DNA of 35,465 bases from a virus, in the IMG/VR virus record IMGVR_UViG_3300042546_000214, positions 1 to 35,465 of that record; one strand, given 5' to 3'. Shown piece after piece: positions 13,918 through 23,824 of this stretch; positions within the stretch are counted from its first letter, which is position 1, and the number at the start of each line of letters is the position of its first letter. A program made the translations under genes and the position numbers. Under the pieces are notes generated by a model, which was not told the origin of the DNA, did not search any database, and was given only the letters and a program-made list of their open reading frames with translations.

Positions 13918-13948
13918 AACGATTGCTTGCTTGCCTTTTTAAGGGCAG

Positions 13949-14588
13949 TGGAGGTGAAGGGAGTCGAACCCTTGTCCAATAATGAAGTCTGTACATACAG
14001 CTTCTCACATGCTTAGTACTGTATTGCTACTGCACCGTAAGTTTTGATCTGATAGGCCCGGACATGTAGGCTATGGGGTTCTTCACCTTGAGCTTAATGG
14101 GTGTCATAGCGGTTTTATCTACTGTACACCTTTTCTTCACCATCTGATCAGTATCTGGTTTTACGACTTCCAGCAAAACTTTTGAATGTCAACACGCCAT
14201 CAGTATCCAGTAGCATAACTACCATCATAGGACTTTGTACCATTCAGTTTGACATGTCGGGAGCAACTGGAAAGATTTACGTTTTGGGAACATAGTTCTT
14301 AATACGAAGGCTAACTCTGTTTATAGCTCCTTTCTCCTGGGCCTATCCAGGGTTCCAACCTTAAGGCATGTCGGTTTACTATTTTCTGTTGCCAGGGATA
14401 GATCCCCCGTAGGTTAGGCAGCAACGGCTACTTCACCGAAGATAGAAGCCAAGATGGCCTCACCTTCTGCTACACGCTCAGACTGAGTCATTGCGTTTAT
14501 TAGTTGATTCCGAGATTAAAGTGGTTGGAGAACCATCCCACTGCATGTGTACATACCACTCACACTACTGTCAAAACCAGGCACCCCC
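13949..14588 (-). ncRNA. ssrA: Phage transfer-messenger RNA (tmRNA)
   Basis: Both tRNA-like ends are present: 5' GGGGGTGCCTGGTTTTGACAG (14588-14568, shown here in part by its pairing GGGGGTG) and a 3' end with ACTAAGCATGTGAGAAGC, T-arm AAGGG-TTCGACT-CCCTT and acceptor CACCTCC plus A. The acceptor arms pair over 7 bp. CCA is not encoded. The tag frame runs from GCA at 14494 to TAA at 14414: 26 residues, beginning AMTQSERVAE and ending EVAVAA; the other two frames stop at once. The upstream AATAAAC-GCA resembles the E. coli AATAGTC-GCA resume site. At 640 nt it is much longer than the usual ~350-400. It would rescue stalled ribosomes and tag the peptides for ClpXP-type proteolysis. It lies 7 nt after a tRNA-like gene. 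Confidence 0.93.
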
Positions 14589-14595
14589 ATAAGAA

Positions 14596-14694
14596 AAGTC
14601 AGGACAGGATTCGAACCTGTAATGATACAACCATATCTGACGTTTCGGGATTACTCCTTACTATGCCTACGTCTACCAATTCCGCCACCTGACT
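14596..14694 (-). tRNA. Leucine-type tRNA-like gene with abnormal centre
   Basis: 99 nt. Acceptor AGTCAGG / CCTGACT pairs fully; the D-arm GCG-GAATTGGTAGA-CGT is typical of class II tRNA-Leu; the T-arm is ACAGG-TTCGAAT-CCTGT. CCA is not encoded. Between the D- and T-arms lie 49 nt in which no standard 5-bp, 7-loop anticodon arm forms. A variable-arm-like hairpin GATAT-GGTT-GTATC is present, and GACGT / ACGTC could pair instead. The anticodon therefore cannot be assigned. It is 7 nt upstream of the tmRNA, so both probably come from one precursor. It may be degenerate or specialised. Confidence 0.65.
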
Positions 14695-19203: not shown

Positions 19204-19656
19204 TTAACAGGATTCAATAAGAGGAACTAGTTCCATAGCTTGACTATAAGAACGAGCCCATATTTTGTAACCATGAATCACCCACATCTTTTTACCTGTC
19301 TCTAAATTGATTTGATTAGGTGGTGGTTCTAACTCACCACTTCCCCAATCAGATTCTGGACGAAGTATACAGAGTGGAAACCACATATTTTCTGATTGTA
19401 CACCACGAGATGTAGGATATACAATACAGTTATGTGTTAAGAAATCTAGCATACCTTCATTTTCTGAATAGTCTTTGATCAGTACTTCACCTTCCTGAAG
19501 TAAAACATCTGGAAGATTTACAGTAGCTGTTGCATAAGGTTCACCGTCACTGGCGTCAAACAGCTGTATAGCTGGACGACCATTAGAATAATTTCTCTTG
19601 CGGACGGTAACCTTAGTAGGATCTGAACCATCAAGAGAAATGAAGAAGTTCTTCAT
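19204..19656 (-). CDS. DUF4313-like hypothetical protein, 150 aa
   Basis: The C-terminal GKKMWVIHGYKIWARSYSQA followed by MELVPLIES resembles DUF4313 proteins common in Bacteroidota mobile elements, whose function is unknown. Beta-rich N-terminus (VTVRKRNYSNGRPAIQLFDA). The start overlaps the upstream PcfJ-like gene by 26 nt, indicating coupled translation. Confidence 0.6.
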   Translation of the reverse strand: MKNFFISLDGSDPTKVTVRKRNYSNGRPAIQLFDASDGEPYATATVNLPDVLLQEGEVLIKDYSENEGMLDFLTHNCIVYPTSRGVQSENMWFPLCILRPESDWGSGELEPPPNQINLETGKKMWVIHGYKIWARSYSQAMELVPLIESC

Positions 19657-20710
19657 GTTCTTGGAATTTTGTTTTTAAAAGTTGTTTGTTTGTATTGTAA
19701 AGCCAGCGTTTTACATATTCGTGTAATTCTGCTGGTGCTTGTGTATTATGTGGTCCGTATAGTTGGTTAAACTTTAATTCTTTTTGGTCATAGTTTAAAC
19801 CTAATGTGTATGTACCTCCACTGTATGTTATATTGTAAACAACATACATTTCATGTCTTACACTGGACCAATAGTTAGTAAATACACAGTGAGACATTGT
19901 TTTACCTTCAGCATACATTTCTCTCTCACTATCTATAAGTGTAAACCCTTCAGGTGTATGTGTACGAAGTTTATCTAACCATTGAAGTTTATCAGTTGAC
20001 AAACTATCTGCTTCAATATCCATAATCTCACGGGTCCACATTTTATGCTCTTCAGTCATACGTTTTTGAGACCATTTAAAGTCTACTTTACGCTCAAGAA
20101 TAATAGCCTGCTGACATAGATCACTATAAGTATGATCTAAACTATTATCTTGTAAGTACTCAAAGAAATGATCTAGATTCTTTGCAGTTTTAATACCAAG
20201 TAATAGTGTTGATTTATTAAAAAATGTATTTGCTGTAATACATTTACTTAATAAAGCAGGTGAACCTTGAACTCTGTACATCTTAAGTATTGCTTTACAC
20301 AGATCATGTGGATTGGTTATTTTACCAACAATAATTTTACCAAGCAAGGAAGGAGTAATGTACTGTAGATAACAACTCTGAACCCACTCTCTTTTAAGAT
20401 GTTTAAGAACCTCATCTATAAATGGAATCGTTTGAAGTTTAGCATTAAACCATAATCTCATACGTCCATTTGGTTCTACAGTGAAACCTGATTTACTATT
20501 AGGCTTTAAGAAATACTTTACACCTTTACTAATTTTGTAGGTGTTATGGGAATAATGAATAGTCCCATCATCTTTTATCAAGATGTTAGCTTTTGAAGCG
20601 TGGTTACCAGAAAAACTACGGTTATAAACTATATTTTTCTTAATACCATCAGGCATTGCCAAGAAATCTTTAACTTCTTGACGTACGTCAGCAAGTTGAA
20701 TCGTTTGCAT
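19631..20710 (-). CDS. PcfJ-like protein, 359 aa
   Basis: The signature of PcfJ-type proteins is seen near residue 265-285: EMYAEGKTMSHCVFTNYWSS, with a conserved EG..M.HCV..Y pattern. The rest is helical and basic. PcfJ is named from a conjugative plasmid and homologues occur in many phages and mobile elements; the function is not established. The gene follows a strong terminator and is coupled to the DUF4313-like gene. Confidence 0.7.
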   Translation of the reverse strand: MQTIQLADVRQEVKDFLAMPDGIKKNIVYNRSFSGNHASKANILIKDDGTIHYSHNTYKISKGVKYFLKPNSKSGFTVEPNGRMRLWFNAKLQTIPFIDEVLKHLKREWVQSCYLQYITPSLLGKIIVGKITNPHDLCKAILKMYRVQGSPALLSKCITANTFFNKSTLLLGIKTAKNLDHFFEYLQDNSLDHTYSDLCQQAIILERKVDFKWSQKRMTEEHKMWTREIMDIEADSLSTDKLQWLDKLRTHTPEGFTLIDSEREMYAEGKTMSHCVFTNYWSSVRHEMYVVYNITYSGGTYTLGLNYDQKELKFNQLYGPHNTQAPAELHEYVKRWLYNTNKQLLKTKFQEHEELLHFS

Positions 20711-20729
20711 AAGAGTTTTTTACGGTGAA

Positions 20730-20761
20730 ATAAAAAACCTGGGTAAATAATATACCCAGGT
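20730..20761 (-). terminator. Intrinsic terminator after the receiver-domain gene
   Basis: Perfect 9-bp stem ACCTGGGTA / TACCCAGGT with an AT loop, followed on the minus strand by TTTTTTATTTC. It lies 3 nt after the stop of the 20765 gene. Confidence 0.9.
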
Positions 20762-20764
20762 CGA

Positions 20765-21154
20765 TTAAGAAAAAAGGTTTGTTATATTTTGATACCCAGC
20801 AGGATTTTGGGTGTGAACTATTATCTCTGGTAGTTGAAGATTATTTACAGCATAGTACTGCTTAAACCATTTAGCACAATCATATCCTGTTTTCTCTTTG
20901 AAAGTATTATACAGTATGTTATATATCTCTGTACCTCTATACATATCTGGATGATAATGTTCATCAGATAAGTCGTGGTCAAAAGATATATGTGTGATAC
21001 TACCTTTGTTTTTTTCTATGGCTTCAACAAACTCATCGTAGTTAGTAACTACATTCCACTTTTCTGTATAAATCTTTGGATCAACTCCTGGTCTGTCATA
21101 CATATATAACAGACAATCATCAGGTACACGCATATCATCAAGAAAAAGTTTCAT
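20765..21154 (-). CDS. Cyclic-phosphate-processing receiver-like domain protein
   Basis: 129 residues. It has the marks of this receiver-like family: MKLFLDDMRVP at the start (acidic pair DD), HISFDHDLSDEHY (acidic/His motif), YDCAKWFKQYY, and IIVHTQNPAGYQNI near the end. The family is predicted, not proven, to act on cyclic phosphate ends of nucleotides or RNA and often sits near RNA-related genes. Here it lies next to the 1.07-kb RNA candidate. The spacing and all motifs are intact. Confidence 0.7.
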   Translation of the reverse strand: MKLFLDDMRVPDDCLLYMYDRPGVDPKIYTEKWNVVTNYDEFVEAIEKNKGSITHISFDHDLSDEHYHPDMYRGTEIYNILYNTFKEKTGYDCAKWFKQYYAVNNLQLPEIIVHTQNPAGYQNITNLFS

Positions 21155-21183: not shown

Positions 21184-22266
21184 TGAAAAGAAATAACAGG
21201 ATGAGGGTATGACCTGTATTGTTATCATTTTGGGTGGTTTCCCACTTGCTCCACAGATTGTATTACTACAACCTAGATAACATAGCCACGGTTATTAACC
21301 GCTAATACTGTATTACAGCATATAGATTACTTACTTTCTACAACTCCTTGCGGGTTCAAAGCCTGCCGGCTCTTAGTTAGTAGATCATGTTCGTCTCACC
21401 ATCAGTCTTGCGAACTTCTGGGCCAACATATTACAGCTGGATAAGGCTATTGTGCCTGTAACACCGTGAACACTTTTGCTTTATTATTAATTTAATTGGT
21501 ATGGCATTCAAACCATAAAAGCTCCAATAGTCTGTAGACAGGACGTGGTCCACGTTTGTAACTTGCCACCTTTTGAGTGGTTTAGCTACGACGCCCTGTT
21601 ACTTTCCCCCGCCAAGGGTACTTGTTGTAAGTTGTTCGTTATCCTATCATTTCTGAGTCCGGCACCACCCGTAGACTGAGGTATTGGTATACCTTTTAGG
21701 ACGAAAACTAGTACTTACTTACGCAATAAGCTTGGCCGGCTTTTTACATAAGTTCATATAGTATCTGTCGGGATCACTCCCCAAGCTGACGTGACTAACG
21801 CCAGCCTACAGTGCTTTCAGGTCTGCCCGACCTTACTCCACACCGCAGTTAACCATACGGTTTTCTGATGACCAGGAGCTATACTCCTGTACAGGTAGGC
21901 TTGGAATGCCTTCCCCATTTTCCTGGCTTATGAATTCACCAGTTATTCTAACGAGCCGAAACCGCCCGTGCCAATTAGTTCAGAGCCACAAGGACTCTTT
22001 AACGCATACACCGTGGATAGTTTTAAATCCTGTAGGTTTGGACAAGTATGCTTTTCACCATGTTGTACTTACAACTATGGTGGATAGACGTTCAGGTCTA
22101 TCAGCTTACACTAGACATAACTCACGCCTAGTGGTGGCCGGTAACTTACCGGATAGTGCTACGTATTCATTAGCTGGTTCGTCAACCAACTCCCCGGTAG
22201 CACCCAGGGCAAGCTTTAAGGTGAACCAGGTCCCAATAAAGGGATACCCAGTTCACCATAATAGTT
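21184..22266 (-). ncRNA. Candidate giant structured non-coding RNA (~1.07 kb)
   Basis: No gene is supported here. A 132-residue plus-strand frame has the look of an accidental frame in RNA. GC is higher than in the genes and strong hairpins are dense: GATAGAC / GTCTATC (22083-22101), GTGCTAC / GTAGCAC (22156-22203), CACCAT / ATGGTG, CGGTAACTTACCG, GTGAAC-GGTCCC / GGGATACC-GTTCAC (22220-22256), ACAGGACGT / ACGCCCTGT (21538-21599). The left end is a terminator (stem 21196-21217 plus U-tract 21184-21195) on the minus strand. Size, phage origin and nearby tRNA genes recall GOLLD and ROOL RNAs; no match could be tested. Confidence 0.7.
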
Positions 22267-22452
22267 TTAGAATCTTGTTGGTCTTGATATACCAAATGCT
22301 TTAATCCAGTTTTGTCTGATTGTACGCTTGTAGTTAAATACTAGCTTATACAGATCTTCAAAATCAAAATCCCATAGACCTTTAAAGAAGTCTATTGCAA
22401 GCATTGGAATAACGATAATAGATAGGGCTACTATCTTCAGAAGGTATTTCAT
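22267..22452 (-). CDS. Small membrane protein, 61 aa
   Basis: MKYLLKIVALSIIVIPMLAI forms one N-terminal transmembrane helix, then an amphipathic aromatic stretch (DFFKGLWDFDFEDLYKLVF) and a basic tail. A TTG at 22473 would add 7 residues; ATG 22452 is preferred. It lies one nt upstream of the giant-RNA tract, so the RNA may be transcribed through it or have its own promoter. Function unknown. Confidence 0.6.
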   Translation of the reverse strand: MKYLLKIVALSIIVIPMLAIDFFKGLWDFDFEDLYKLVFNYKRTIRQNWIKAFGISRPTRF

Positions 22453-22469
22453 ATGTTTAGGTATTGATG

Positions 22470-22508
22470 ACAAGTTTAAAATGTCCGTCCAGTATAAACC
22501 GGACGGAC
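22470..22508 (-). terminator. Intrinsic terminator after the lipoprotein gene
   Basis: Perfect 8-bp stem GTCCGTCC / GGACGGAC around an AT loop (22483-22508), followed on the minus strand by ATTTTAAACTTG. It lies 18 nt after the lipoprotein stop. Confidence 0.85.
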
Positions 22509-23618: not shown

Positions 23619-23824
23619 ATATTGAGTTGTTTGGTGACTTGTATATGTCCCCTCTGCGTTCAGCTCCCTTGCTAATGCCTTGGTGTTAGCCAAGGATACT
23701 CTTACATAGATTGTCAGGAACTGCCTAGCCTTGGGAACTAGGTTGTGACGCATTAAACAAATGTTATAGCTATCTTATCCGCGGCCGAGGTTGGTTGCGG
23801 AAGCTGATTATACAGAAGTAAATA

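Follow-up and report, generated by a model that had tools for sequence, protein, structure and literature searches.

A probable divergent GOLLD-type giant RNA encoded by a crAss-like phage

The closest described systems are GOLLD and ROOL. Cryo-electron microscopy of GOLLD env-38 revealed a hollow, RNA-only cage, a 14-mer whose cap is built from the 5' part of the RNA and whose ring is built from the 3' part; GOLLD expression rises during lysis, and its 5' region is less conserved than its 3' region (PMC12286853). ROOL is a large structured phage RNA that likewise forms cages (PMC12286853). Here we examine positions 21184-22266 of a viral sequence of 35,465 nucleotides (IMG/VR record IMGVR_UViG_3300042546_000214, hereafter the window). 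With a probability of roughly 85%, this stretch encodes, on its minus strand, a giant non-coding RNA of the GOLLD type, which belongs to a divergent branch and is an accessory module of crAss-like phages.

An earlier reading of the window from its letters alone (the sequence-only reading) had left two options, a class not described before and divergent membership in GOLLD or ROOL, and had proposed an Infernal search and covariation analysis in related phages as checks. In a cmscan run at a permissive threshold, the GOLLD model RF02032 matched the minus strand over its full length (model positions 1-416 of 416) with 103.5 bits and E = 8.6e-28. The curated inclusion cut-off of this model is 150 bits, which is a search threshold and not a biological feature, and the default scan missed the RNA because its score lies below it. 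No Rfam match of the stretch to ROOL was listed up to E = 10; ROOL identity was rejected on this ground, and the likeness to ROOL is that of one large structured phage RNA to another. With GOLLD the RNA shares the full-length 3' domain including the motifs UCAAAAG, AAAGCAAAAGU and CGCAAG and the last stem, a two-part architecture with a separate, less conserved 5' domain, a length above 800 nucleotides (nt) and its location in a phage.

Covariation in the 3' domain was strong. In an alignment of 13 sequences, 53 of the 72 consensus pairs showed at least one double change. The cells were paired to 95.0%, as compared to 71.6% after shuffling and 37-45% when the partners were slid, and none of 500 shuffles reached any of the covariation measures. 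In the 5'-domain alignment double changes were seen for 15 of 25 consensus pairs. Joint folding with the nearest relative, L062, which is 97% identical in the 3' domain, gave 318 pairs, of which 7 were compensated and none was broken, the fold being fitted to both sequences. The 3' fold is firm and the 5' fold provisional.

The 1.1-kb stretch is a real giant RNA, and it is encoded on the minus strand. No credible gene is present between the flanking minus-strand open reading frames (ORFs) 20765-21154(-), a cREC_REC-domain protein, and 22267-22473(-), of 68 amino acids. The folding energy of the minus strand was better than that of 20 dinucleotide shuffles (z -4.4), with a weaker effect on the plus strand (z -2.2), and the G+C content of the core was 0.42-0.48 vs mostly 0.32-0.38 in the surroundings. 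The dense stable stems, the raised G+C content and the lack of a credible gene noted by the sequence-only reading are all borne out by these data. The ends of the RNA (5' near 22266, 3' near 21184) are inferred; the coordinates are good, because L160, a distant relative, has the 5' hairpin as well, and because the final conserved stem, with its U-rich tail, ends near 21184.

Relatives were found mostly as fragmentary contigs. Of the 19 viral contigs found in a 3'-domain pattern search, 14 exceed the GOLLD cut-off, with 180-332 bits; among the other five, four are nearly identical and scored 117-123 bits, and L020 scored 122.6 bits. More members were exposed by a 5'-domain pattern search, after which RF02032 matched 16 of the 30 records tested (window included), always over the full length and always with 72-134 bits. 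An additional member (L158/L160, 81 bits) has the 5' hairpin and is devoid of the 5' module. In the 3'-domain tree the clade was supported with a value of 1.000 as sister to canonical GOLLD, and L011, which at 180 bits is above the cut-off, branched between the clade and the other canonical copies. The clade keeps the ring (3') domain and changes the 5' part: a conserved 5' module was present in 15 of 16 clade sequences, the count falling short of 16 because L020 begins inside the RNA, and it was not found in canonical GOLLDs. The same module was also seen without a GOLLD 3' domain, in L028 (6599-6680), L032 and L041 (2240-2316); other RNAs may therefore use it.

Searches for further occurrences were negative. 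No close DNA relatives of the stretch were found among phage records, and the GOLLD pattern gave six hits in bacterial genome contigs, none of which was confirmed as GOLLD by Rfam. GOLLD was not found in nine phage records, of which seven are assigned to Crassvirales, nor in Leptolyngbya phage Lbo-JY46, whereas the control record L003 gave a match. Among the GOLLD papers listed from the open-access literature, none deals with crAss-like phages according to its title or abstract, and the branch carried by these phages is apparently unrecorded so far.

Both TerL and portal of the window are crAss-like. The TerL family phrog_6681 matched 13 of 18 clade records vs none of five canonical GOLLD records. 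Two clade TerLs were only 20-23% identical to that of the window, and the RNA therefore spans more than one TerL lineage. Among 50 records with a TerL about 70-92% identical to that of the window, many of which are fragments, a single one carries the RNA. L080, with a TerL 92% identical, has kept the flanking genes on both sides but is without GOLLD and without the cREC and PcfJ genes. We therefore consider the RNA to be accessory in these phages. When window 19631-21154 is set against L080 1404-2830, GOLLD, the cREC_REC gene and a PcfJ-like gene are absent together between conserved flanks, so that the three may move as one module. For the neighbouring cREC protein no confirmed relatives were found in viral contigs.

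Several results weigh against a place within GOLLD. The window RNA and its whole clade score below the curated cut-off, and the mean 3'-domain identity between clade and canonical GOLLD is only 42%. A small covariance model built from the clade only (R1, UCAAAAG region) found no canonical GOLLD, and neither did the clade 5' profile give a match in canonical GOLLD loci. Moreover, when the fold of the window RNA alone was imposed on L062, 4 pairs were compensated and 14 broken, with 0.5 and 21 at random; the 5' fold is therefore uncertain. The order of two small GC-loop hairpins appears, by eye, swapped relative to canonical GOLLD. The low scores and the failure of both clade-specific models to detect canonical copies could be explained if these RNAs formed a class apart from GOLLD, sharing only the 3' ring with it and using their own 5' domain for another assembly, with a different copy number or without a cage. 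We regard this as unlikely, given that the 3' match is full length with the motif order conserved, that L011 is intermediate and yet above the cut-off, and that a 5' region less conserved than the 3' region has already been described for GOLLD itself (PMC12286853). Because of the sub-cut-off scores and because the clade-only covariance model and the 5' profile both miss canonical GOLLD, we file the RNA as a divergent GOLLD subfamily: it is neither a canonical member nor a new class. From the options of the sequence-only reading the divergent GOLLD member thus remains, and the new class and the ROOL assignment fall away.

Two other explanations have far less in their favor. Patchy presence among the TerL relatives and a weak 3' end without ribozyme might be expected of a non-functional GOLLD remnant, but the 3' helices are intact and the joint fold with L062 contains no broken pair, which makes such a remnant very improbable. 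A missed protein gene is less credible still. The sole long ORF of the stretch, 21906-22304(+), does exist and would encode 132 amino acids; in a Pfam search it had no match, in L062 a frameshift and stop codons interrupt it, and it overlaps RNA that is conserved on the other strand. Its dismissal as noise in the sequence-only reading was justified.

For the divergent GOLLD subfamily, the env-38 structure suggests how the RNA might act. By this analogy, the RNA chains would self-assemble during infection, via the 3' ring domain and the 5' cap, into a hollow homo-oligomeric cage. Cage contents, or a role of the cage in infection, would be the least certain step. The divergent crAss-like branch extends the GOLLD class and shows that the 3' ring is the conserved part of the RNA and the 5' cap the variable one. 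The Rfam cut-off currently hides this whole branch, and close pairs of phages with and without the RNA are natural material for asking what it does.

Table 1. Features of the RNA locus in the window
Feature	Positions	Strand	Evidence
GOLLD-type giant RNA, ~1.08 kb	21184-22266	-	no credible gene; fold z -4.4; Rfam match; relatives
3' (ring) domain, homologous to full RF02032 model 1-416	21198-21599	-	103.5 bits, E = 8.6e-28; covariation
First 3'-domain helices with conserved UCAAAAG loop	21523-21604	-	covarying helices 2-4 of alignment A4; clade model R1 79.9 bits
Last stem (P27 position), ACAGG/CCUGU, 12-nt loop	21195-21217	-	helix 13 of alignment A4; Rfam alignment
U-rich stretch after last stem	21184-21194	-	stem plus U-rich stretch not called a terminator by scan
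5' region, taken as cap domain by analogy with env-38	21600-22266	-	25 consensus pairs; window/L062 joint fold; fold provisional
Conserved 5' module AAGYAUAC..GUAUGCGUUAA, common to clade	21954-22055	-	alignments A3, A5
5' terminal hairpin GGUGAACUGG..CCUGGUUCACC	22220-22257	-	recurs 5' of GOLLD in L062 and L160

At the 3' end, the clean intrinsic terminator proposed by the sequence-only reading was not confirmed. The terminator scan found none at 21184, the U-tract behind the last stem is weak and interrupted, and no ribozyme is present there. The sole minus-strand match of the scan, a hairpin at 20762-20736, lies past the next gene. The window RNA may end at the weak U-tract or read on to this hairpin. 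A location beside tRNA genes, expected from the same reading, was not found either: GOLLD often occurs near tRNA islands, whereas no tRNA adjoins the RNA in the window, the nearest ones being located at 14596-14694 and 29350, more than 6 kb away.

In many other members of the clade, the last stem is followed by a further element within about 15 nt. These are a Pistol ribozyme in L006 and L017, a tRNA in L160 and a twister-like element, UAAUGCAC..UUCCCAAG..GUGCAGAGGG, in L052, L054/L020, L059, L061 and L063, with the same-position element of L065 differing by one loop change. The 3' end in these loci is probably cut by the neighbouring ribozyme or by tRNA processing, and the presence of ribozymes and tRNAs directly at the 3' end suggests that the exact end matters. 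Pistol (RF02679, 42-56 bits) was seen downstream of GOLLD in L005, L006, L015, L017, L020 and L065. Some of these copies are further off, about 280 nt on in L005 and L015 and roughly 170-400 nt across L005, L015, L020 and L065. No paper with both GOLLD and 'pistol ribozyme' was found in the open-access literature.

The twister-like element has the consensus UAAUGYNY..UUCCCAAGG..GAGGG with compensatory changes in P2 and P4, and it is present in at least 120 viral contigs and also in L028. All five pairs of P2 form in 115 of 120 distinct copies, compensatory variants included, a count that is slightly favoured because, where several 3' strands were possible, the best one was used; P4 is paired to 98-99% vs 58-79% after shuffling. 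In L028 and L032 the element follows the 5' module that lacks a GOLLD 3' domain. The window copy, at 23649-23755(-), does not lie at the 3' end of the RNA; it is found upstream, at a distance of about 1.4 kb. We take this element to be reminiscent of the twister ribozyme, although the Rfam twister models do not match it: twister-P1 and twister-P5 gave no match at E <= 0.1, and the single match of twister-P3, in another record, was not significant (E = 0.19). Assignment to the twister family was dropped for lack of a significant match, and the element is called twister-like only.

Theta ribozymes of gut phages (PMC10879173) offer a parallel, as they too are small self-cleaving ribozymes beside phage structured RNA, like Pistol next to GOLLD in some relatives. 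Theta ribozymes are, however, hepatitis delta virus-like and stand beside tRNAs (PMC10879173), whereas here Pistol or the unclassified twister-like element follows GOLLD, and does not do so in the window copy. We would give slightly less than even odds to the broader proposal that crAss-like phages possess a GOLLD lineage of their own, with an exchangeable 5' cap and a 3' end set by self-cleaving ribozymes (Pistol and the unclassified twister-like family) or by tRNA processing.

Finally, a phage transfer-messenger RNA (tmRNA; RF00023, 66.2 bits) that ARAGORN had missed was detected at 13946-14588(-) of the window. One of its stem regions is enlarged by about 306 bases, its apparent tag ends in VAVAA, and G023, the record of the nearest relative, contains a matching hit. 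Most canonical GOLLD copies are accompanied by a tmRNA no more than about 2 kb away, which usually lies on the other strand (L002, L003, L007-L010, L012-L014, L016, L018 and L019). A match to the group I intron family (RF00028) and a weak tmRNA match overlap at 8352-8942 of L010, a canonical GOLLD phage.
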